A model generated the notes under the pieces. The model did not search any database. It was not told the origin of the DNA and saw only the letters and a list, made by a program, of their open reading frames with translations. The position numbers and the translations under genes are program-made. A DNA stretch of 64,000 nucleotides from Rhizoctonia solani (lineage: Eukaryota; Basidiomycota; Agaricomycetes; Cantharellales; Ceratobasidiaceae): the NCBI RefSeq assembly GCF_016906535.1, contig NC_057378.1:992001-1056000 (forward strand), read 5' to 3'. Shown here one piece after another: positions 45,636 through 63,828 of this stretch; the stretch's first letter is position 1; every line of letters starts with the position of its first letter.

Positions 45636-47283
45636 TCAAACTAAACTCAGGGTTGCCCTTATACTCAATTCCGGGCACAGTGCTTTGGCACTTTCGGAAA
45701 AGCTGGGAGTACCGGGTGGGACATCGTTGAACCGCTGAAGACATTTCTCGGCAAGTCCTAGGCGACCAAGGTGCGGGAGCTGTGTGAGAATATCAAGCAA
45801 ACTCTTCTGTAGATAATTTTGTATCTTTCAATGTGAGTCCCGTATGTTACTCATAAGGACACTCGCCTGGTCATATTGACTAGGGCCATTGAGACCCGTC
45901 GTTAGGATAACCAACTCCTTCAGGACCGGCACTCTAGCTGCTATTTCGCCTAGTATGTGTATCACATTCGAGTCACCGTTAGAATCGTACGCCCCTTCGT
46001 GATTGGTAAAGATTCGTAGGGCCCTTAAACGTGAAAGTTCCGGAAAGCTGGGCCTGCTAAGCTCCTCGATATGAAAGTGATTGAGATGAGCCGGGTAGGC
46101 AATATCTAGTGTCTCTAGCTGTGCTCCAAGGCTCGAATTTAGCAAAGGTGTGACAACTGAGACCGGGGCCCTAATATGACGGATCGAAGGCATCGCTTCC
46201 TCTATGTCACGAGGAGAAATCATCGGTCCTCCCTGTTCTTCAAATTCAGATATGTCCAACTCGATGGTCTGTAAGTGCTTGTGATTTTGAATGAACCTCC
46301 ATATGCCGAAAATGTGGTGACCGAAATTATGGGTGAGTACCGGGCGCTCGTAAACACCCACGCGAAGGTGGCTCAAGTGAGGAAACTCATGTGAAGAGAG
46401 CTCCGCAAGAATATTGTCTACTCCCCATATGGGGCCCATAACTATCGTTGGAAGTTGTTCAGGATCTATCGCCAGAAACTCGATGTTGTGCGCATTACGA
46501 ATCAGTTTAACGATCATATTCGGCACCGTCCAGCTGGGTCTCTCTTTATAGTTGGTTAGCGTCAGGACTGAAGACTGGTCAGGAGTAGAAATTGTTGCCT
46601 CCCATATAGCCGTCAAATCCAATAGAAAGCATTTTTAGACCAGCCAGAGGTCCGTTTTGGTCAAATGTGATGTGTGAACTTGGACCGAATACAGAACTGC
46701 CTTGTGCCCCGTGAAAATCGACATTCACCTAGTTAGATTTTCCGCCCATTAGAGCAAAGTAAAATTATAAAAGAAAATAGAATAAAAACGAAACATACCA
46801 TCTGGAACTTATTATGCGCCATAACCAGACGTAGGGAGCGAAGCTTGGGCAACTCTAGGACAGCCGCTCTAAAGTACGGTACCAGTAGACCTCATTCATA
46901 CCCGAGACGGTCCAAGCAACATGGTCGAGATTCTTCATTTTGGATATCGCAGTTATGAATACTTCTACGTCCTCTTGTTTCAGCTCCATGTCAATCCTCA
47001 GACGGTGCGCATAACTTGGAATTCGAGATGCGCTATCTGTTTCATCGAGAACTTGTTCTGTGAATTCTTCCAGGTAATATTTGATCGTCATGACCGGAAA
47101 ACACGTAAACTGAGACCAACTAGGGTCATTGGTAGCACAGGCTAGACGGATGGATCGGTAAAGGATAGGGAGCGCGACAGATCTCCAGGCTTTACAAACT
47201 GTAGAACTCGATATGAGAGATTTCCTAGGAATTGATGGTAGAACAAGTGCAACAATTTCGATTGGCAAGCTGTCGGTGCGCAT
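45636..47283 (-). CDS. F-box protein, fourth F-box gene (paralogue of 24787-26546)
   Basis: The ATG at 47283 gives MRTDSLPIEIVALVLPSIPR followed by KSLISSSTVCKAWRSVALPI, the F-box. LRR-like blocks follow (AHRLRIDMELKQEDVEVFIT). The frame breaks near 46865, after which LELPKLRSLRLVMAHNKFQ is read. It breaks again near 46625, before DLTAIWEATISTPDQSS, and near 45830 before LLDILTQLPHLGRLGLAEKC. The single-base nature of two of the breaks matches the pattern elsewhere in the window. It ends at the stop at 45636. It is oriented opposite to its paralogue 20 kb away, and both share the SP(Q/R)D(M/I)E(D/E) motif. Its ligase target is unknown. Confidence 0.68.
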
Positions 47284-47483
47284 ATTGGGGAGCGGCAAGT
47301 CCAAGTTGCTTTGTGTAAATGCCAAAGGTCGTTTTTGGTGAAGGCAAGCGCGTTTATGATGTAAGCGCGACTAAGCACACTTAGTCACCAATGGTAATTT
47401 ACAATTCATCCATTCTAAATATAACTCTCACTCATTAAAAAATTACGGTACAAAAAAAAAAGCAACAACCATACATCAACACA

Positions 47484-48235
47484 TTACTTGGAAGCAATCA
47501 TGGGAGCCTTGAGCACCCATTGCCGCCTCGACAGCTCGGACAAACAAAACGCCGCAAACCCGGATCGAGATACGTACGTGCCCAACTTGGGAGCACCGAC
47601 ATACCCAGCGACACAGCCTCGTTCTCGGACCGGGTCAACAACGGAACTCGCACGATGGTCCATTCGATTCCGTCCCCCTCTCTTCGCACGGTTTCTCCGA
47701 TCGCCACTTCGTCCGCATAGGCGTCGTACGCGGTCAGCTTGATGCCCTGGACAAGGGTCCATATTGCCAAGTCCCGTTTATCGTTCGGGTCCGGAATCGA
47801 GACTGTGCCCAGTAATATGATCCGCTTGCACTCTACCTCTGGTTCTTTCATGATTCGCAGGATGAGCGAGTAGGCTTTGGAGAGTGGTAGATTTGAAGGG
47901 TGTGCGCCTGGAAAGTGCGAGGGCGTAGTGCCAGGCCCGAGGTTGGACAGAATGGCATGGGTGTGTCGGATCGCGTGACGTAGAGAATCTTCGTCTGTTA
48001 GTTCTCCTTTAACTACAATGATCGACTCGTGGGATGCTATGTCTGTTCACCCCCACATAATGTAATGTATCATTGAGTTTGATTCGGGTGGAGGGCTGTG
48101 GGGAAACGACACACCCTCTGGTAATTTGGCTGGGTTCCTGACGTAGACTGTAACAATGTGTCCGGCTTCCAGAGCTTTGCGGGTCAAGATGATCCCCATC
48201 TCTCCCGTCGCTCCCAGAATTAAAAGCCTAGTCAT
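47484..48235 (-). CDS. NmrA-like NAD(P)-binding (atypical SDR) protein
   Basis: Rossmann-fold protein of the NmrA / atypical short-chain dehydrogenase group, a family of redox sensors and NAD(P)H reductases. The ATG at 48235 gives MTRLLILGATGEMGIILTRK, with the G-A-T-G-x-x-G dinucleotide loop, then VYVRNPAKLPE (NADP-selecting Arg). A 76-nt intron ends near 48042. Then come VVKGELTDEDSLRHAI, HAILSNLGPGTTPSHFPG, KRIILLGTVSIPDPNDKRDL and IEWTIVRVPLLT. The frame breaks at the CCC run at 47604-47606 (plus strand). One extra base gives SLGYVGAPKLGTYVSRSG and runs to the natural end (QWVLKAPMIASK, stop at 47484). The Tyr/Lys catalytic pair of classical SDRs is not evident, as in NmrA proteins. Confidence 0.8.
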
Positions 48236-48618
48236 TGCGGGATAGAGAACAGATGGTCGTTGTAAGATGATACTATCTTACGGAACGCTTACGAGAAGGG
48301 TGCTGTAGGCACCATGTGTGTTTGCTGTGTGCAGGCGCCACATTGGCATTCAGGCATGTAAATGACGTCAGCGGGTGTCTGGCTGAGGCCGGGCTCGGTT
48401 TCAAAAGAGCCATATATTTAATTAATTAAACATTCCACAGTAGTAAACTTTGATGGCGATCTTCCAAGTTGGCCGATCACTTGTGAACCTAACCAGGCCT
48501 CGGCCATCTCACACCACCCTGCTGCCCTCGACTCGCCCGCTTCAGGTTTTCTCGCATTCCAGTATCGACGTCATCATCTAATTCAATCGTGTCAACCCAT
48601 TATCCGTGCGTCAAATAT
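48236..48618. other. Intergenic / possible 3' exon of GPN1
   Basis: A small alternative last exon of GPN1 may lie at about 48489-48560. Otherwise there is only the upstream region of the NmrA-like gene, including a TATATTTAATTAATTAA stretch at 48411-48427. Confidence 0.4.
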
Positions 48619-50210
48619 TTATTCAAGCTTACCTCGATCAACAATATCATCTTCTTCGTCCACATCATATTCCCTATTTTCATCGTCGTCAATCTCACCG
48701 TCGTCCCGGGACCTACTGATCCCAGCTCTCAGCCTCGAACCGCCCCGGAAATTGATCACAGGCTCGTCATCGTCATCTTCGCCTGCATCGGCCCACTTGT
48801 CAAGATACGGGTTCTCGCGTCCGGTCCAATGGGGGTTTGAACTCTGTGCCCGTTCCTTGTCCACAGCGAGGTCCTTCATCAATCGGTCGACCGAGTCTTG
48901 TTTGGTCGCTGCGAGTTTGTCGTCCTGTTTATTATCAGGTGAGCCTATCAGAATTTTCAACGCCGGGAAGAGACCTACTCGTTCCTTTTTGAGTTTCTCC
49001 AGTTCGGGTTTATAGTTCCTAAGAAGGGGAGGTGAGTCTCGAAATATAACAGACTGATAATCGGCCTCGACATACTTTTCGTATTCCTCCCTCGCCTCAT
49101 CCACAGCCTTGAAGAAGTCTTTTACTCCAGCCCCAGTAGCCGACGAAACTCCTACAGGCTGACACCCACCATTCCAATTTCCAGTCCGAATAAATACAAA
49201 ATAATCTCACCTTCAAGTGGCGATAAAATTCATCCAAAACAAGAGACATGCTGTTCATAAGACTGCTCATATACGTAGGCTCCCCATCCGCATCTCGGTG
49301 CTCGCGCGAGGCCAAGGCAGCTTGAAAAGCTACATCTCTCAGTTAGTATACTTGGGGAGGGTAAAGGAAGGATTAGAATTCCCCGAACCTTCAAAGTCGG
49401 ACATCCATTCTACTGCAAACTCGTGCGGCGTGACGTCTGTCTTGTTGAATACGATGATAAAGGGTAGCCTTGTCTTGTATAAAATACTGTAAAATATCAC
49501 CCCCATGAGTGTACGTGTTTTGGATAGGGTGAAATGTGGGACTTGCCTGCATGCATAGAGCATATTGCTCATAAAGGTCGCTGGAGCGACACACCGGGGT
49601 GTATCGATGATATAGGCCAAGCACGCAGGACCTGCTGCAGCCATCGCGTCGGTCAATATGGCACCCGAAGCCGACCAAGTAAAAATTTCAATTTGCCCAG
49701 GTGTGTCGAGGACGATATAGCTTGTACTCCAATTAATAAACCGACCAGCTAGGAAACAAAAAAAAAAAGCTCACTCGACTTCCGAGACCTCTTCTCGACT
49801 AGCGACAGAACTTGATCGAACTTGGTCGTGAACAAGTTGAGAGAAGTGAGAATACCGCCGTTGGGACCTAGATTGTACCTGTGGATAGATGGATTAATCC
49901 CATGGGTCTACTCACCGAGCATATCCGAAAGATCTCACTGTTTCATGACTTCTTTGTAATCCACGGTGTCTCGAATATCAATGTTAGCCTCGAATGGAAC
50001 GTTGGCTACGGCTGGGTCGAGATTAATGACATAGGGTGGGCGGGGAGCATCTGTTGTGGACGAGGCGGTAGAGCGAAGATACGAGGTGATTCGCTGGACA
50101 AACGTTGTCTTCCCAGACCCTGCCATTCCAATAGTAATAATCGTGATGGGCTTTTTGGGAGTCGCCGAGGGACCCGCTGCAGGGGCTGCTGACTCTTCCG
50201 TGCTCGACAT
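48619..50210 (-). CDS. NPA3: GPN-loop GTPase GPN1/Npa3
   Basis: Essential GTPase for assembly and nuclear import of RNA polymerase II. The ATG at 50210 begins [13 protein letters not shown]. The P-loop is [10 protein letters not shown], followed by [20 protein letters not shown]. The family-defining Gly-Pro-Asn loop is in [17 protein letters not shown]3 is DTPGQIE and G4 is VFNKTD. C-terminal helices carry SLNMSL-type text, [16 protein letters not shown] and an acidic tail ([18 protein letters not shown]). About six short introns. The frame ends with DRGKLE and a TAA at 48619. Those last codons overlap a GTAAGC donor that could splice to an exon at about 48560-48489, giving a slightly longer tail; I cannot decide between them. 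Confidence 0.92.
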
Positions 50211-50504
50211 CTTGCCGACTTGCCAAGCTATCAGCATGTGCCACACAGTTGAGTGTAATCTACTCACTTGGTATTATATTTGATCCGCGAGCCTACAGTT
50301 ATTACATCCTAAGTATCGCGTTAACTCGCCAAGTTGCAGCCAAAACTCACCGATCGTCGCCCACTTTTAATTGATTACCAATTGGAATTGCCTTGTGCGT
50401 TTCTGATTACATCATACATCCACTTTGGCGAGGGGGCGTGCGCGTTTGTGCCCAATTGCAACCACGACGCCCACAGGCCTTGGTCCCCATCAACTGTCAT
50501 CGTT

Positions 50505-51911
50505 ATGTCTGATCCAAATAACTCTGGTGGAAACACACTTGGAGGCGGTTCTGGCGAGCCTCTGCCTCCCGAATGGGCTGCTCGCAGCGGAGGGTCAGGT
50601 GGGGGTGGTAGAGGAGGTGGAGCGGGGAGACTAGGAAGGATCGGAGACTGGGGAGGAACTAATACGTGAGTAACATCCACATCGAACGACTTGTATAATA
50701 TAACTAGGATTTGTCCAGATCTCGTGGGGCTCCTCCAGGGGTGGATTTGCCACCCTCCGCGATGTTGCCTCGTCCGCCCCTCCGCCACCTTCTCGTAGAC
50801 CACCGGAGGATGATGACGACGAGGAGGAAGACGACGGCCAACCAGCTAATCTCTACACTGGAGGAGAGCATTCCGGTCTCTCTGTCCAGAACCCAGACAC
50901 GGCTCGGCGATCCGGTCCACCTAATCTCGTTCGAGATATATTCAAAAAGGCCGCCGAGGGATCGAGCTCGAACGCTGCAGCAGCACCCAGCGAAGAACCA
51001 AGGTCGAGTATATTCTCTGGAGGAGGGCATACATTGGGCAGCGACGAAATCGAATCGACATATATCCCCGATCCAAATGCGCAGACCGCCAGGCCGGAAG
51101 ACGACGTAGGCTCCCATATCGTATCCTTCCTATCTCCGAGCTAACTTGACCATGCTATAGGACGAAGTAGCGATCCGTGAAATCACCTTTTGGCGGGACG
51201 GATTCAGCATTGCAGACGGTCCGCTCCTCAAATACGACGACCCGGCAAACCAAGCGATCCTCAGCGCTATCAATTCAGGCTCGGCTCCTCCTTCCGTGTT
51301 GAACGTCCGGGTCGGCCAACCGGTCGAACTGCGTGTTGCGCAAAGGACAAAAGAGACTACCGTCCTCCCCCACCTAAACCCGCTACACCCTTTTCAGGGT
51401 CTGGGAATCGACTGGGTGCGCCAGCTCCGTCGGGAGAGGCATCCGGGTCTGGGTCTGGATCGACATCGATGCCTGGCACGTTTGCGAACTCTGAGCCCGA
51501 GGCGATTCGAACCATGTTCGAGGTCGACAACTCGCAGCCGACGACAAGCATACAGGTTCGACTTGCGGATGGAACACGGTACGGATTCGCTCATACATAC
51601 CCCCCCCCCTCCCCTCTTCTATCCGGAAACTAATGACCAATGATTCGGGATAGGCTTACATGTCGTATGAATTTGACTCATACGGTTGGGGACATCCGAA
51701 GCTTCATCAATGCGTAAGTCTGCCTGTTCTCTCGCTTCGGTGATTTCGGACTGGCTGATTGGTGGTTGGTCGGATTAGGTCTACTCCCGGAGCCGCGTCC
51801 CGTCCGTACACCATCGGAACGACCTTTCCTAATCGTATACTCGAAGACCCATCGCAAACGGTGGAAGCAGCTGGAATCAAGGGAAGCGTGGTCGTGCAGC
51901 GTTGGGTATGA
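50505..51911 (+). CDS. SHP1: Shp1/p47 (NSFL1C) UBX-domain cofactor of Cdc48/p97
   Basis: Adaptor that brings the Cdc48 AAA ATPase to ubiquitinated substrates and membrane-fusion sites. ATG at 50505. After a short N-terminal exon ([14 protein letters not shown], lacking an obvious UBA domain) a Gly-rich linker leads to [14 protein letters not shown]. The SEP domain reads [20 protein letters not shown], then [19 protein letters not shown]. The UBX domain starts [20 protein letters not shown] and ends [20 protein letters not shown], stop at 51911. Introns near 50665-50719, 51107-51162 and in the UBX exons. The frame breaks at the GGGG run 50726-50729; five Gs would give [13 protein letters not shown]. 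Because this gene is essential in yeasts, I treat that as a sequence error. The 3' end is copied at 59853-60369. Confidence 0.9.
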
Positions 51912-53630: not shown

Positions 53631-56600
53631 ATGGTACGCTCTCTCAAGGATCTACTTCCCACTCAACGAGCACCCCCGATAACCATGTACCATGATACTA
53701 TTATCGCGTTGTCTTGGCTGTGTGCGGCATATGCAGGAACCAAAGGTATGAGTCATATAAGCGTCTCAGCCACTTTGATTTGTTGAGCCTAGTTGTAACC
53801 CCCGCACATTCTGAAGGATGTAAGACCGAGTTCGGTCCAAGACGCCGTGATTCTGACAAAAGTAAAATACGATATGCCCATATAGGAAGTGAGTAGGGTT
53901 TCGGCATAGAGATGCGGATTTACAGTTCAATTAACAAATCGGTCTCAATAACCACACAGCGAGTGCGTACCGAACTCTAATGTTACTCATGTTTGGTACA
54001 AAGAAAGCTTAAATGTTTATAGGCGGTTCGTGTGCAAATCTCCAGATGGGATCTGAGTGCTGACGATGGTTGCCGCGAACGCTTCAACAGAGGGTGAGTG
54101 AGTTGTTGTACCTAGATACAAAATACATTAGGCCTCGTTTGGAAACAGGATGTGAGTACATGTTAGCCGAGATATCTATGCATGACATTATGAGACATGA
54201 GTAGTGGGTATGTCCAGATAACAATCACTTCGGGAGTTATGACCTTAGGCTGGTACCACACATCATATATAGATAGTACGTTTGAGTATTCAGCCGTGGT
54301 TGTGTTACTAACCTGACTTTCATACTCAACAGAAAGTCAGTAGTCTCCTGGGTGCATATGACTATGACCTCATTTCCCACATTGTTTACAGATGGTAGGT
54401 GTGTAAGGGTGCAAATCAGGCAAATGACTAATCTGCGTACTTTTATAGAAGGTATATATCGCATCTACTGGCCTCTCATTTATACCTCTTTTGACGTAGA
54501 AGCCATAATGAAAAATGTGATAGTTGGTAGGTCTGCCGTACCCAAGACTTACGAGATGATATATTCGATAGCACTTACGACTGGTTTGTTAGGCTGTACG
54601 TTCACGGAATGCTGAGTAGCGAGAAACAGGATGACCCGTGAGTGTGCTATGTGCATCGCCAAAACGCATGCCGGCTAATGTGAATGGGCCGCACATAACG
54701 CCAGCATTAGTAAGTCGCTCACTTCATCTGAAAACAATAGGCTGATGCGTATGGATAGTGCACAGGAAGTAAGTACTTACAGCCCAAGGTGGTAGTGTCC
54801 ACTTTGGGGCTGCCTAAATATGTGAGCACGAAAGCGTTTCGTAACCAAATTACATATAGCTTACTTATCTGGTAGAAAGGAGGGGCGTGCCGCCGGAACT
54901 AAACGCATACTATGTCAATAGGAGGTAAGCGACATTTTCTGAAGAAGAAGGGGCCTCATTCAGTGAACCAATGGGTAGAGAGTGAGCGAACTATAATCAC
55001 TTCAAAAGTAAGTATGAGTGCCATGTACAACGACTTGAGGACTAGCTAATGGTCGTAAGTAGAATTGATGTTATACTCATCAACGGGACAGGCGGTACGT
55101 GTCCAAGTGTGAATTTGGACACCTCGAGCGAGAGCTAATGGAGTTTGGGTTGCTGGGTACGAGTAGTTGGTACGTGGTTCGTGACTTTGTTGCCGAGTTT
55201 GGGTTGGGGGAGGAGGTGCTAACTGTCGAATCTCAGGAGGTACGTACGTCGTGGCCCCCCAATCGCTTGAATGATATGGAGAATCAATGGGAACCTCGGT
55301 TTCAGACAGTGAGTGAAGGGTGTTTCTGGGGAGGAAGTATGCGGGTGTAACTTTTGTACTGTTATTTCCTATTTCAGAAGGTTTGGGCAAACTACCTGTC
55401 AGGCAGAGGTGTTGGCTAACTATGTAATGATGGACACCTGGTGAAACTAAGCCGGTAGGTATGCGGTAAATATGGATAGACTACGATGCCTGACGAAAAA
55501 ATGCGTGCTGTTTGGTATATTAGCCGGTGCGTATGGGGCTGGTGTCGAGCATGGATATGCACTGACCACACACTGCGTGCTGTTCGGTATATCAGGATGT
55601 GCGTATGGGGCTGGTGTCGAGCATGGATATGCACTGACCACACACTGCGTGCTGTTCGGTATATCAGTGGGTGCGTATGGGGCTGGTGCCGAGGATGGAT
55701 ATGCACTGACCACACACTGCGTGCTGTTCGGTATATCAGCAGGTGCGTATGGGGCTGGTGTCGAGGATGGATATGCACTGACCACACACTGCGTGCTGTT
55801 CGGTATATTAGCCGGTGCGTATGGGGCTGGTGTCGAGCATGGATATGCACTGACCACGCACTGCGTGCTGTTCGGTATATTAGCCGGTGCGTATGGGGCT
55901 GGTGTCGAGGATGGATATGCACTGACCACACAGTGCGTGCTGTTCGGTATATTAGCTTGTGCGTATGGGGCTGGTGCCGAGGATGGATATGCACTGACCA
56001 CACACTGCGTGCTGTTCGGTATATCAGGATGTGCGTATGGGGCTGGTGTCGAGCATGGATATGCACTGACCACACACTGCGTGCTGTTCGGTATATCAGT
56101 GGGTGCGTATGGGGCTGGTGTCGAGCATGGATATGCACTGACCACACACTGCGTGCTGTTCGGTATATCAGTGGGTGCGTATGGGGCTGGTGTCGAGCAT
56201 GGATATGCACTGACCACACACTGCGTGCTGTTCGGTATATTAGTCGGTGCGTATGGGGCTGGTGTCGAGGATGGATATGCACTGACCACACACTGCGTGC
56301 TGTTCGGTATATCAGTGGGTGCGTATGGGGCTGGTGTCGAGCATGGATATGCACTGACCACACACTGCGTGCTGTTCGGTATATCAGTGGGTGCGTATGG
56401 GGCTGGTGTCGAGCATGGATATGCACTGACCACACACTGCGTGCTGTTCGGTATATCAGGAGGTGCGTATGGGGCTGGTGTCGAGGATGGATATGCACTG
56501 ACCACACACTGCGTGCTGTTCGGTATATTAGTCGGTGCGTATGGGGCTGGTGTCGAGGATGGATATGCACTGACCACACACTGCGTGCTGTTCGGTATAT

Positions 56601-58916
56601 TAGTCGGTGCGTATGGGGCTGGTGTCGAGGATGGATATGCACTGACCACACACTGCGTGCTGTTCGGTATATCAGTGGGTGCGTATGGGGCTGGTGTCGA
56701 GCATGGATATGCACTGACCACACACTGCGTGCTGTTCGGTATATCAGGATGTGCGTATGGGGCTGGTGTCGAGCATGGATATGCACTGACCACACACTGC
56801 GTGCTGTTCGGTATATCAGTGGGTGCGTATGGGGCTGGTGCCGAGGATGGATATGCACTGACCACATACTGCGTGCTGTTCGGTATATTAGCCGGTGCGT
56901 ATGGGGCTGGTGTCGAGCATGGATATGCACTGACCACACACTGCGTGCTGTTCGGTATATTAGCCGGTGCGTATGGGGCTGGTGTCGAGCATGGATATGC
57001 ACTGACCACACACTGCGTGCTGTTCGGTATATTAGCCGGTGCGTATGGGGCTGGTGTCGAGCATGGATATGCACTGACCACACACTGCGTGCTGTTCGGT
57101 ATATTAGCTTGTGCGTATGGGGCTGGTGTCGAGCATGGATATGCACTGACCACACACTGCGTGCTGTTCGGTATATTAGAAGGTGCGTATGGGGCTGGTG
57201 TCGAGGATGGATATGCACTGACCACGCACTGCGTGCTGTTCGGTATATCAGGAGGTGCGTATGGGGCTGGTGCCGAGGATGGATATGCACTGACCACACA
57301 CTGCGTGCTGTTCGGTATATTAGCCGGTGCGTATGGGGCTGGTGTCGAGCATGGATATGCACTGACCACACACTGCGTGCTGTTCGGTATATTAGCTTGT
57401 GCGTATGGGGCTGGTGCCGAGGATGGATATGCACTGACCACACACTGCGTGCTGTTCGGTATATCAGGATGTGCGTATGGGGCTGGTGTCGAGGATGGAT
57501 ATGCACTGACCACACACTGCGTGCTGTTCGGTATATTAGCCGGTGCGTATGGGGCTGGTGTCGAGCATGGATATGCACTGACCACACACTGCGTGCTGTT
57601 CGGTATATTAGCTTGTGCGTATGGGGCTGGTGTCGAGGATGGATATGCACTGACCACACACTGCGTGCTGTTCGGTATATCAGTGGGTGCGTATGGAGCT
57701 GGTGTCGAGGATGGATATGCACTGACCACGCACTGCGTGCTGTTCGGTATATCAGGAGGTGCGTATGGGGCTGGTGTCGAAGATGCATATGCACTGACGA
57801 CCCACTGTACTGTTCGGCACCTCAGTGGGTATGTGGAATATGACCATGCATTCCACAAGCTTATGGGTAAACATTTGGCATCTAAGATGGTGAGTCTCTT
57901 TTGCTTTTCTTATTTGAATCATAAATGTTGATGACTTTACGCAGGAGGTGCGTACATTTCTCACTGTTTGTACAAATGCTTGCTGAATTTCTCGTCGGCC
58001 TTTTTTTATAGAATGTGCGTTATACAATCACTCTTAGGCCGTAATGCGCACTCACCTCCGAGGTCCGGTGTCTCCAATCTTAGCCGGTGAGTTTACTATA
58101 GACATCAAGCTCTCATGGTGACTTATTGCTGATGGCTTGGCCTGCTTCCCTTCCAGTGGGTATGTTTCGATCTGGCCATTCACACTAGCTCTAGAGGACT
58201 CGCGTTGATCAGTCGGAACATTCTCGTTTGATGTTCCAGTATGTACGTACATGATATTAGTTTCGACGAAGTGACTCGTGCTGATAGGAGCTTATACCTG
58301 ACTTCCCAGAAGGTGCAAATGCAGCAGCAATTCGGTAGAACAGGAGCTAAAATACTCAATCGATACCTGAACCTTCTCTTTCAGGCGGTATGTACATATT
58401 CTTCTTGACAGCAAATTAGTGTTTATAACTTGAGAATGGGGATACCTACTACAGAAGGTTCGTATAACCTGTGTTCCTTGTGGGAGCACGTTGATGGCTC
58501 GAGGACCTGCATTCATTATCTTAGGCCGTATCTATATTTCCTTCATTACGCTGAGGTAGCCTTTGACTAACACACGCTGTTGTTTTACTCTTTTAGCGGG
58601 TGAGTACATAGAGCCATTTGTTCAAGCATGCGCTCCGATCTTGACTGCTGTCAATCTATCCCTCAGTTGGTGCGTACATCGTCCGCAGAAGGGCGTTTTA
58701 TTTTCTTTTATTCAAACGCTTATCGACATACGTCATTTCAGGATAGAACACTGAAAAATCATGCTCGCCAACGGGACGAGTCTCGTGACTTGGAATCCCA
58801 CCATGGTAAATCTATATTGGTCTCCGAACCGGCCGTGGATACTGAGTACTTTTGTATCCGGACCCAACTCTTCAGATCAAGCGCAATCAGAATCTCAGGC
58901 ACCACGTCAAAATTAG
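53631..58916 (+). CDS. Gene built from about 66 three-nucleotide exons (one codon per exon), function unknown
   Basis: No family recognised. The ATG (53631-53633) sits directly on a GTACGC donor. Exon 2 (53737-53745) encodes EPK. Then come 3-nt exons flanked by AG and GT: 13 between 53817 and 54595, GAA 54766 and GAG 54922, then after a 9-nt exon (55046-55054) six more to CCG 55452. Next are 32 exons at 55524 + 72k, then TGG 57826, then 12 more from 57887 to 58669. The terminal exons are 58742-58805 and 58876-58916 (stop TAG). Introns are mostly 53-80 nt with GTGAGT/GTACGT/GTATGT/GTGCGT donors and CTRAY branch sites. Phase 0 is open throughout; phases 1 and 2 hit stops in the first ten exons. 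The product starts charged (EPKDERARDWIKMKLA), has a Trp/Pro/Asp/Leu centre, and ends with a basic/acidic helix (MENPWYKAKARLDRTLKNH). Intervals 54596-54765 and 54769-55054 are not fully resolved (candidate exons of 8, 5, 9 and 21 nt). Confidence 0.7.
55527..57825 (+). repeat. 72-bp tandem array: near-identical introns separated by single variable codons
   Basis: There are 31 exact 72-bp units plus a last unit of 70 bp. Each unit is a 69-nt intron (GTGCGTATGGGGCTGG ... CACTGACC ... TATAT(C/T)AG) and a 3-nt exon. Intron variation is almost confined to GTGTC/GTGCC, GAGC/GAGG and CACA/CACG. The exon takes eight values: TGG, CCG, CTT, GAT, GAG, TCG, CAG, AAG. TCAG always precedes TGG, GAT, GAG or CAG; TTAG always precedes CCG, CTT, TCG or AAG. 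Because 72 is a multiple of three, the array is also open in long overlapping frames on both strands; I regard those as by-products. Confidence 0.9.
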
Positions 58917-59847
58917 CAAATCTGGGGATGATATTTTGGATGGTATGTAGCAAGTAGCTACAAGGCAGGCCAAAGTATTGATGATTTGAAAAAGGTACTA
59001 CAATATGTATGCGCACATGTGTTAGGACTGCTATGGGGTCGAATGTGGTTGGAGTAATATATATGGATTTCAGAGGAGCGTAAAAATTATACTTGAGCCA
59101 GTGCTCCGATCGTCGTGAGACCCATCGATAGAGGTTGTCGTTTGGCTCTAGATACGAGCGCTGGGCGATCAGGCGCACAACTCCCCGGCACCGGATAGTC
59201 TGAGGCGTTGAGACGCATACAGAACTCGTAGGTCTAGTAGGCCACGTCTCAAGACAGTAGTGATGGGTGAAGAGACGAGGAAGAGAATTCACTAACATCT
59301 GTCCAGGACCGTTTGGTCGAATAGCACGAGCATTGCGGGCATAAAACAAACTTATTGCTATCGGTGTCGTGGGTACGTGAGGTGCGAGGTTGCGCGGTGG
59401 TTTACAGAAAGGATAGATACTATCAAATAGGCGTGGTGTAAATACAATGTGCGAGTATGAACTGGGATGGATACGGTACGGAGAGGGGGCCCCTGGGGTC
59501 ACGTTAGACGTTAGCGATGCTGGTAGGAAAGACCGGGGCACCCAGACACGACGGAGGCTTGCTATCGGTCGCGTGCCCGCCGCTAAGGAATGGGTGATTG
59601 TATGTGTCGTTAGTGCGCAAGGACGATGAGGAAATAAGTAGACGACGGGAGGGCCGAATGGGTGCGGGGTGGAGCCCGATGGGTAGATCTGGCTCACCCT
59701 TAGCGTCGCTGGGCTCGCGAGGGGCGTGCGAGTGTGCGGGATCGTGAGGTACGCGCCGAAGAGATGTTCGTGACGGCTGGATCCAAAGGGGGATGCGAGG
59801 GCAAGTGGAGCTGGGGGATGTGTGTAGTTTTGCGACGGAGCTTGCAA
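58759..59847 (-). CDS. Long antisense open frame, uncertain
   Basis: A continuous minus-strand frame of 362 codons with no intron. It has no ATG near its 5' end (it opens with TTG); the first internal ATG is well inside (MLVNSLPRLFTHH). Composition is His/Pro/Ser/Arg-rich and no domain is visible. It overlaps the last exons of the single-codon-exon gene in antisense and begins 6 nt from the SHP1 duplicate. The length without a stop is unlikely by chance, but I would not call it a gene without a transcript. Confidence 0.25.
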   Translation of the reverse strand: MQAPSQNYTHPPAPLALASPFGSSRHEHLFGAYLTIPHTRTPLASPATLRVSQIYPSGSTPHPFGPPVVYLFPHRPCALTTHTITHSLAAGTRPIASLRRVWVPRSFLPASLTSNVTPGAPSPYRIHPSSYSHIVFTPRLFDSIYPFCKPPRNLAPHVPTTPIAISLFYARNARAIRPNGPGQMLVNSLPRLFTHHYCLETWPTRPTSSVCVSTPQTIRCRGVVRLIAQRSYLEPNDNLYRWVSRRSEHWLKYNFYAPLKSIYITPTTFDPIAVLTHVRIHIVVPFSNHQYFGLPCSYLLHTIQNIIPRFANFDVVPEILIALDLKSWVRIQKYSVSTAGSETNIDLPWWDSKSRDSSRWRA

Positions 59848-59852
59848 CCTCT

Positions 59853-60369
59853 CCTAATCACATACTTGAAGACCCATCGCAAACGGGAGAAGCAGTCGGA
59901 ATCAAGGGAAGCGTGGTCGTGCAGCGTTGGGTGTGAGCAAGACTGTAGAAAAAAAGTCAAGTTTGATGTCGGATACATGAATGGAAGTTTTTGTTTATAA
60001 TCAATCAAAAGTAGTAGCTTGGGGGCAAAACTCGCGACCGAATACGCATGTAGATCTGCTGGTGGATGAAAGGTTCTGACGTGTGGCTGAATGGCCAAGC
60101 TACTTCAGCTATTGGTCAAATAGCTCAGCAGCGAACGCACGGGCCGAGCTGAGGTAGGTCAATGGTTAGCTGCATAGTAGCGATAGCTCGAACAGAACCG
60201 AAATTTAATCCACCAACCAACCGAATAGAACCTCTTGATAGCACGTACATGTGACAAATTCAATGTGTGTACGGATGTGGCGGATCCGGAAACATTCATT
60301 CAGTAATTTATCGGAGACATCGTAATCCCGCCAAGCCGTCCGGAACCAAACCGCATTCATCCACAATGA
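59853..60369 (+). pseudogene. SHP1 3'-end fragment, segmental duplication copy 2
   Basis: Carries the last 27 codons of the SHP1 UBX domain ([20 protein letters not shown], then VVVQRWV and a stop) and the homologous 3' flank. It has no upstream SHP1 exons and so cannot make the adaptor. Differences from copy 1 are scattered substitutions plus a deletion of about 120 nt. It marks the right border of the segment that separates SHP1 from the metalloprotease gene. Confidence 0.85.
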
Positions 60370-62419: not shown

Positions 62420-63828
62420 TTAGTAGCTTCCAGCCTTGATGTTCTTGTAATTGTACACCTTGCCGGCCTTGCCACCGGTGACCTTGAGTCCAGACCAGTC
62501 CCAAGAACCTGTATTACCAATTAGCCAATGAGGTATATGAGCGGCCGATATATTGCTACTACTAACCAGTGCATCCAGCACCACAGTCAACAGCGACACG
62601 TTGAGCATCAGAGGTGACAGCAATGTTGTTGGTACCGAAGGAGATGCCCTACCCATTGTGTTAGACTAGGTCTCTGAAGAAAAGAGTGAAATATACTTAC
62701 AGACATGGCGACCTTGTTTCCAGGAGTGCCAAGGGTAGAGGGGTAGCTCTGGTCAACAATGACACCGTACTTCTTGATGCCGGTCGCAGTGTTGCCGTTG
62801 AAGACGACGTTGGTCACAGAGGCGTTGCTAGCGTCGGCCTTGGTCTTGATGCGGAGCGCCTGATCGTTGTTGACAACCTTGTTGTTCAAGATTTGAATGT
62901 TCTTGACAGTAGCATCAGCCGAGACCGATCCAATAGAGATACCATGCCACCAGAGCAGTGTTGCGCTGGAAGATAATATTCGAGCCCTTGTTGATAGCGA
63001 TGCAATCATCCTGGTTGTAGACGGTGCTGTCCTCGATCGTAAGATCGGTGGTAGAAACATCGAAACCATCGCTATGAAGTAGATGAGATTTAAGCATTTC
63101 ATACGCTATTGGGTAATAATTAATCTCACGTGTTGTGACCAGCAGCCTTGCCGCCCGACTTGCTGTTGGGTTTGTCACCGGCGGCTAACATAAAGTAAGT
63201 ACGAAGTGCAAAGGGCGAAATTGATGTGCACATACAGTTGTCAATTGTGAGCTTGGACATGACCAGCTTGGCAGGGTTGCTGACGCTGTATACATGCGCG
63301 GGCGAGTTGAGAACCTTGACGTTCGAGTAGGTACCGGACATCTTAATCTTCATCATGGGTGAGGCTTGGTCACACCTCCGTTTCCGCCTTGCCCATCCCA
63401 GTATGAAGGTCCTTGGCCGTCAAAAGTGTGGCCGTTTCCATTGACTACACATTTTAGTATCAATTCTGGAAATATAACTGGGCGGGACCTACAGACAAGG
63501 TTATTGCCGGTGATAGAGAAAAGAGGACCGGCCCAGTTGGCGACGCCAAACTTAACATCACCCAGCATGTTGACGGTCGTGCCATCGAGAGCAGAAATTG
63601 CAAAGGTCTTCCCGGCGGGGACGGTGAATGCATTGATGTTGATCTGTATAAACATGCGCATATATGAGCTCCCCTTTCCACAATAGCGTGCGGCCGACTC
63701 ACAGTTGTACATTTCTGGGCGGCGGCGACATCGTTCAATGATGAGATCGTTCCGGTGCAACGTTTTCCAGTAGGGACAGCAGCCACCAACGCAACCGGGA
63801 GAGTAGCAAGAGCAAGTGAGAAACGCAT
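62420..63828 (-). CDS. Endopolygalacturonase GH28, second copy, with a 2-nt shortfall at the catalytic His
   Basis: Close paralogue of the gene at 3573-4991, with matching intron positions and near-identical protein text. The ATG at 63828 gives a signal peptide (MRFSLALATLPVALVAAVPT) and KR. NTDGFD-, QDDCIAINKG- and RIKTK-type motifs are present (DGFDVST, DDCIAINKGSNIIF, ALRIKTKADAS). At the fourth motif, 62941-62960, two bases are missing relative to copy 1, which breaks the frame inside GGHG. Adding one base to each of two runs (TT and CC on the coding strand) would restore NTCSGGHGIS. This is either a recent pseudogene or, as I think more likely given similar breaks elsewhere, a consensus error. 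It ends IKAGSY at 62420. Confidence 0.85.

Follow-up and report, generated by a model that had tools for sequence, protein, structure and literature searches.

Can a protein-coding gene be assembled almost entirely from exons that each carry one codon? This question is raised by a locus of the fungus Rhizoctonia solani lying in a window of 64,000 nt (NC_057378.1, positions 992,001-1,056,000, forward strand), to which all gene positions given below are relative. The original prediction, made from this sequence alone, read a series of AG-NNN-GT sites as a chain of 3-nt exons that runs through two non-repetitive flanks and an array of tandem 72-bp cassettes between them. We assessed the chain by resampling, by comparison with paralogs of the same genome, and by codon-level analysis of the retained bases. 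The results make it very probable that the genome has five intact paralogs, each with a conserved chain of 47-83 single-codon exons that would be spliced into a message for a protein of 85-123 amino acids. The interpretation as a chain gene is supported by codon-like variation in the claimed phase and by full ATG-to-TAG frames with GT-AG introns only in five genes. The original prediction was right as to gene type and phase, and overlooked both the multi-copy family and the high variability of the array codons.

The predicted chain of one-codon exons

All 66 AG-NNN-GT sites that had been claimed (21 in the 5' flank, 32 in the array, one joining exon, and 12 in the 3' flank) were found at their coordinates with the codons given for them. 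The list had overlooked one further exon, AGA, which raises the total of predicted one-codon exons to 67. The chain consists of the following parts, of which the two flanking chains are supported by their coordinates, the chain test, conservation, and codon tests.

53817..55454, + strand: 5' chain of 22 one-codon exons, starting at 53817, 53886, 53960, 54023, 54091, 54149, 54205, 54273, 54333, 54392, 54449, 54524, 54593, 54766, 54922, 54979, 55092, 55167, 55237, 55306, 55378, and 55452
54979..54981, + strand: the additional one-codon exon AGA; AG-AGA-GTGAG is unchanged in 7/7 aligned copies, the acceptor being TAG in four copies and CAG in three
55502..57807, + strand: 72-bp cassettes in tandem, 32 in number, with a 69-nt intron and a single codon in each; exons start at 55524 + 72k
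57826..58669, + strand: 3' chain of 13 one-codon exons, starting at 57826, 57887, 57945, 58012, 58084, 58157, 58240, 58310, 58385, 58455, 58525, 58597, and 58667

The chain test used a simple purpose-made splice-site score, introns of 45-85 nt, and 300 first-order Markov resamplings per flank. The 5' flank (53747-55520) gave a best run of 13 consecutive 3-nt exons with a score of 42.1, compared to a maximum run of four and a best score of 7.6 in the resamplings; the 3' flank (57829-58741) gave a 12-exon run scoring 38.2, compared to three and 6.2. Exon lengths of 1, 2, 4, 5, 6, and 9 nt yielded runs of 0 or 1 in the same test, and no comparable chain of 3-nt exons was present on either strand in the rest of the window (runs ≤2). 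The resampling and the exon-length comparison together exclude a chance origin of the chain. When the flank codons were joined, phase 0 was free of stops, as had been claimed, and the two off-phase readings met stops at the 8th and the 1st codon.

A family of paralogs

A DNA search with the 5' flank over the genome (40.7 Mb in 16 contigs, with the window on contig C9) revealed six further loci of 71-82% identity, three on contig C12 (C12a, C12b, C12c) and a single locus apiece on C13, C11, and C16, that of C16 being hit in two pieces. A 72-bp array is present at every one of these loci, in degenerate form at C12c. We refer to the window gene, C12a, C12b, C13, and C16 as the intact set. The predicted gene models of the four intact paralogs, all with GT-AG introns and all ending at the same aligned TAG as the window gene, are as follows.

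C12a: 72 exons, 68 of them one-codon; 108 residues
C12b: 63 exons, 59 of them one-codon; 99 residues (shared TAG reached with the second acceptor)
C13: 87 exons, 83 of them one-codon; 123 residues
C16: 51 exons, 47 of them one-codon; 85 residues

C12a stands in tandem with the decayed C12c (G000:C12:473864-483320), their starts being about 7.6 kb apart, and the third family member on this contig is about 114 kb away from the pair. A fragment on C3 (G000:C3:61736-61933), within the first 62 kb of that contig, holds three array units that no chain adjoins at either end. When the genome was searched with the array region of C16, by a method that scores the best candidates only and skips very common words, the family and this one C3 fragment were recovered.

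Loss of conservation of the donors and acceptors had been named as an outcome that would speak against the chain. The comparison here was made among paralogs of the same genome, the introns of which are about 27% different. AG and GT were unchanged at the 35 flank exons of all five intact genes: the framing A, G, G, and T showed no difference in any of the 10 gene pairs, although one of the 35 exons (AGA) was itself discovered by its conservation. The intron interior differed at 0.269 per site and the donor positions +5 and +6 at 0.057 and 0.067. The codon positions 1, 2, and 3 of the flank exons differed at 0.129, 0.109, and 0.203, so that the third codon base is the most variable, contrary to the pattern that a constraint from the donor on the final base of the exon would produce. 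Indels were present in introns, with none in the one-codon exons.

The joined flank codons were then compared by the ratio of nonsynonymous to synonymous differences (pN/pS) in six genes, with C11, a near copy of C13, omitted and C12c represented by its 5' part only. The ratio was 0.27 in phase 0 (0.16 in the 5' flank and 0.42 in the 3' flank), and reading the same letters one or two bases off (without C12c) gave 1.06 and 1.06. Over 73 shifted control offsets the mean was 0.86 and the median 0.75, and the minimum among the 61 offsets away from the motifs was 0.42. In a column permutation within exons that kept the relatedness of the five intact genes, the observed ratio was reached in 2 of 10000 permutations; zero stops alone occurred in 280, and none combined so low a ratio with zero stops. 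Sixteen of the 35 flank exons are invariant, six show synonymous variation only (with series such as ATA/ATT/ATC, CCG/CCA/CCC, and TTG/CTG/TTA among the flank exons), and 13 carry residue-changing differences. These comparisons support the view that the joined one-codon stretches evolve as codons in phase 0.

The 72-bp cassette array

Tandem Repeats Finder reports the window array as 32.0 copies with 95% matches. AG and GT are intact in 32/32 units, and none of the other 70 positions varies as much as codon positions 1 and 2. Counting the window gene, these two positions lead the ranking in four intact genes out of five, and they take ranks 1 and 5 in C16. The differences per site between array units were as follows.

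Window array: codon 0.61, intron 0.03
C12a array: codon 0.64, intron 0.08
C12b array: codon 0.56, intron 0.04
C13 array: codon 0.64, intron 0.16 (47 of 48 units, the short unit excluded)
C16 array: codon 0.52, intron 0.21

The variability per site of the array codon exceeds that of the intron beside it by a factor of 2.5 to 19. Across the intact set, none of the 150 codons in the arrays is a stop, and AG and GT are kept in 150/150. A tally over all seven loci comprised 216 codons from 224 units, read stepwise with a loss of register in C12c. With the C11 array in register it includes no stop, where base frequencies would lead one to expect 13.1 if the codons were independent. The third codon base is G or T in 207 of these 216 codons, as the donor would favor. 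In C16, the last of the 13 array units occupies the place of the joining exon at 57826 of the window gene.

The variable stretch of the predicted protein is rich in D, R, W, P, and L and lies between conserved ends. Since neutral homogenization would level the codons like the introns, selection for diversity is the likely cause of the contrast, and it is likely that selection keeps the array codons diverse. A mutational cause targeted at the exon could also be the source of this diversity.

The possibility that the flank introns descend from the array unit was also considered. Two of the 32 tested match the unit well, 55455-55523 (z 7.9) and 57759-57825 (z 12.3), and both adjoin the array; the next best reach z 2.8, 2.4, and 2.3. 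Because only the array-adjoining introns match well, these comparisons do not show that the entire chain goes back to one origin through tandem growth.

Gene models from start to stop

The revised model of the window gene has 71 exons, 67 of them one-codon, and 70 introns, all GT-AG, in a gene of 5.3 kb that would encode 105 residues. In addition to the chain, it comprises the following features.

53631..53633, + strand: start codon ATG, predicted to be the last codon of exon 1, with the donor GTACGC directly 3' of it
53737..53745, + strand: exon 2, 9 nt, GAACCAAAG (E-P-K), flanked by CAG and GTATGA
58742..58805, + strand: penultimate exon, 64 nt, DRTLKNHARQRDESRDLESHH plus one base; also 64 nt in the five paralogs tested
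58806..58875, + strand: last intron, 70 nt, GTAAAT...CAG, compared with the paralogs
58876..58916, + strand: last coding exon, DQAQSESQAPRQN, with stop TAG; the same aligned TAG closes the frame in the five paralogs tested

The choice of start rests on its sequence surroundings: AATGGTACG at the start codon is unchanged in 7/7 aligned copies, and in the window gene position -3 is a purine and position +4 is G. Exon 2 has 9 nt in the window gene and C16 and 15 nt in C12a, C12b, and C13, a difference of whole codons. At the 3' end, where the original prediction had an open terminal exon, the revised model ends in the 64-nt exon, the 70-nt intron, and the last exon running to the TAG at 58916. 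The last intron measures 70 nt in C12a, 71 nt in C13 and C11, 63 nt in C16, and 70 or 128 nt in C12b, which has two acceptors; there, a tandem duplication of 58 to 59 bp spans the end of this intron and the next exon. In order, the predicted window product consists of MEPKDERARDWIKMKLAEERALETKP, the array part PDWQPPLDWWSWWESSWDWPPPLKEPLDPLWE, then WMENPWYKAKARL, then DRTLKNHARQRDESRDLESHHDQAQSESQAPRQN. If the start is correctly placed, its N-terminus would be MEPKDERARDWIKMK, which is charged. An upstream ATG at 53685 opens MYHDTIIALSWLCAAYA, which reads like a signal peptide; it was rejected, since it enters the chain out of phase and the ATG is kept in 0/6 other aligned copies.

The window introns have a median length of 69 nt, and four exceed 100 nt (103, 170, 153, and 110 nt), the longest being 170 nt. 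Within this longest intron (54596-54765), the sequence at 54627-54643, CAG-GATGACCC-GTGAGT, resembles an 8-nt exon (54630-54637) with a good donor. Five of the other copies retain the element, that of C12c with GC as its donor, and it is altered in C16. With an apparently conserved 5-nt candidate, it was considered as an extra exon in the 170- and 153-nt introns and rejected: the lengths do not add up to whole codons, and the 8-nt candidate would leave a 34-nt intron.

A query with the unspliced array found one protein, P0121, a partial unnamed R. solani product from a 7,726-base contig. It reads like C12a minus the introns from CAA to GGT, from CCA to TGG, and from TAT to AAG, and C12a has two stops at places of Q in P0121. 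The gene model behind P0121 seems to excise three introns of the predicted chain and to read through the rest. As decoded from the protein rather than from DNA, the array part of P0121 has seven units, with three one-codon and four two-codon (6-nt) exons, as if the intron between two codons had been cleanly lost.

Weighing the gene model and its alternatives

Several observations count against a working gene of this kind. A search of 5.8 billion predicted proteins, which needs shared 5-residue words and yielded three candidates, gave the spliced window protein no match at E ≤ 10, and the PDB gave none at E ≤ 1; four of the spliced proteins had no Pfam match at E ≤ 1. In C12c, three flank exons lack one splice site each, the chain jumps over two places of the array, and no 3' half was present in the 9.1 kb fetched. 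C11, near-identical to C13, has lost one AG at a flank exon; within the array the two differ in introns only (C11 has the codon GAA as in C13), and C11 either is a young duplicate with a lesion or carries a sequence error. The intact set was chosen after the lesions in C12c and C11 were known, and even within it C12b reaches the shared stop only via the second of its two acceptors. A rival in-phase start, ATG 53731-53733 (ATGCAGGAACCAAAG), lies directly 5' of exon 2 and would be usable if the first intron were retained, and the conserved donor-like element in the 170-nt intron is unexplained by the gene model. The branch motif YTRAY was not found in 16 of the 39 non-array window introns, in the stretch searched. 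Counting each of the 24 codon types of the seven-locus tally once, only 1.65 stop types would be expected, so that stop avoidance in the arrays is weak support. Finally, the control offset +4 gave a pN/pS (0.25) below the real ratio, with +8 (0.29) and +7 (0.37) near it; these three offsets sit on or beside the donor, and at +4 a stop occurs in 194 of 455 pairs.

The lesions of C12c and C11, and the lack of a database protein matching the spliced window product, would fit a reading in which the copies are unexpressed relics of an old gene type, with sites that persist by recent duplication. We regard this as highly unlikely, since five copies with introns about 27% different keep every AG, every GT, and the open frame, whereas C12c shows that sites can be lost. 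It is also very unlikely that the AG-NNN-GT sites are stations of recursive splicing, where the three bases are discarded or irrelevant and the gene yields either a non-coding RNA or a short protein encoded by its end exons. In Drosophila, introns are known to be removed in steps at paired AG/GT sites (PMC6110457), and the splice sites here are more strongly conserved than the codons. However, at the sites described there, which lie in very long introns, AG directly abuts GT (PMC6110457), a zero-length form that was not encountered at any of the 66 listed sites, where three bases always stand between AG and GT. Moreover, the three bases evolve as phase-0 codons, the five intact genes have no stops, and both exon 2 and the exons decoded from P0121 vary by whole codons.

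An unspliced repetitive coding region would account for the array in another way, the 72 bp being equal to 24 codons. Two frames on the + strand are open across it in the window (826 and 787 residues), as are 801 and 820 residues on the - strand; one + frame is stop-free over the array in three of the five genes (window, C12b, and C16) with a single stop in C12a, and the NCBI gene model on the other R. solani contig translates a portion of such an array in this frame, without splicing. Nevertheless, every unspliced + frame meets stops in the array of at least one of the five genes, even the best of them having 56 in C13, and one 68-nt unit of C13 shifts the unspliced frame and leaves the spliced frame intact. 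On these two grounds a satellite or unspliced repeat protein was rejected; such a reading, which would also leave the 35 non-repetitive flank exons unaccounted for, is extremely improbable.

Splicing signals, proposed mechanism and function

Among the 39 non-array window introns, the donor has G at +5 in 35 and T at +6 in 32, and the acceptor has C or T at -3 in 36. With donors near GTRNGT, YAG acceptors, and 70/70 GT-AG, the window introns fit the form of the major (U2) spliceosome. The YTRAY motif was found in 23 of the 39, compared to a mean of 13.0 and a maximum of 22 in 500 shuffles.

Two splice sites 3 nt apart could hardly be bound together, and it is a sound inference from the gene structure that splicing would proceed by intron definition at every step. 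Exon definition across microexons is thought to be sterically infeasible, with short introns handled by intron definition (PMC8378409), and for a 1-nt exon of Arabidopsis ordered removal by intron definition and recursive splicing has been proposed (PMC4674806). In the mechanism that we propose, each short intron would be recognized as a unit and the introns would be removed one after another, each step adding one codon and exposing the next donor. The process would act as a ratchet that retains one codon per step, with as many as 70 such steps in succession.

Whenever a cassette is gained, lost, or exchanged, one whole residue would change and the frame would stay unbroken, and selection would diversify the array codons as recombination keeps the introns alike. 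We consider it fairly probable that the amino acid is here the unit of both splicing and evolution, with cassettes gained, lost, and swapped, the protein rewritten residue by residue in frame, and the array codons kept diverse. Since all such exons hold a single codon of equal phase, and the donors and acceptors within the array closely resemble one another, skipping of cassettes could then yield many in-frame versions of the protein from one gene.

The part by which the protein acts is probably the variable stretch between its conserved ends. R. solani forms hyphal compatibility groups and infects plants. A variable stretch under likely diversifying selection in such a fungus suggests that recognition, of self, of a partner, or of the host, is the most likely function, and this is the weakest step of the argument.

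Relation to known genes

Among the papers listed by literature searches, which did not cover preprints and most subscription papers, we found no gene made of one-codon exons or of intron-plus-codon cassettes, and none cut as finely as the five R. solani genes; the nearest were micro-exon genes (MEGs), bicycle genes, and single 3-nt or 1-nt exons. The MEGs of Schistosoma mansoni likewise have mostly very short exons, mostly of lengths that are multiples of three, and encode small variable proteins (PMC10526429). They are described as having 10 to 20 very short exons (3-81 bp according to the abstract, 6-81 bp according to the text, most of 15 bp), introns of 0.1-5 kb, and a signal peptide as the main shared motif (PMC10526429). 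The R. solani genes share with them many consecutive very short exons of 3n length (67 in the window and 47 to 83 in the four paralogs); they differ in that each of these exons is exactly one codon, in the tandem cassette array, and in window introns of median 69 nt and at most 170 nt. Aphid bicycle genes also combine many small internal exons with fast-evolving proteins (PMC9168663). They average about 17 exons, with nearly all internal exons in phase 2, and the megacycle gene has more than 100 microexons for about 2000 residues (PMC9168663), by our arithmetic about 20 residues per exon, as opposed to one residue per exon in phase 0 here.

Single tiny exons are known from mouse Ncam (3 nt; PMC8042270), the duplicated lipS of Dactylellina (two of 3 nt; PMC5639578), and Arabidopsis APC11 (1 nt; PMC4674806). 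In those cases one or two tiny exons occur in an ordinary gene, whereas the R. solani genes are predicted to be built of them. Introners multiply across genes, whereas here one intron plus codon is tandemly repeated within one gene family. The likeness to fungal introner-like elements, which are described as invasive, lies in near-identical introns in many copies (PMC4457414). Recursive (ratchet) splicing, which forms part of a model put forward for the 1-nt exon of APC11 (PMC4674806), resembles the proposed mechanism in that adjacent 3' and 5' splice sites are used in order. In the Drosophila form AG is joined directly to GT in very long introns (PMC6110457), whereas a codon would be retained per step here.

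The window protein of 105 residues would require 70 splicing events from a 5.3-kb gene, and by our arithmetic an accuracy of 99% per step would leave only about half of the messages correct. If the model is true, these genes offer a strict natural test of the fidelity of intron-defined ordered splicing and of minimal splice-site spacing, and they suggest how a protein could be changed one residue at a time without frame shift. They also point to a blind spot, as the 5-residue-word search of 5.8 billion predicted proteins did not find the window product, and an automatic gene model covering a relative apparently leaves the array unspliced, removing some introns only.

Neighboring genes

An antisense open frame of 364 amino acids (58759-59853, - strand) extends over the 3' end of the gene and has no Pfam match. 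On the upstream side, the neighbors at 46858-51640 have Pfam matches to F-box-like, NAD(P)H-binding, ATP_bind_1, and SEP domains; downstream, 62611-63105 holds a piece of a glycosyl hydrolase of family 28 (Pfam). By these domain matches, the neighbors on both sides are ordinary genes.

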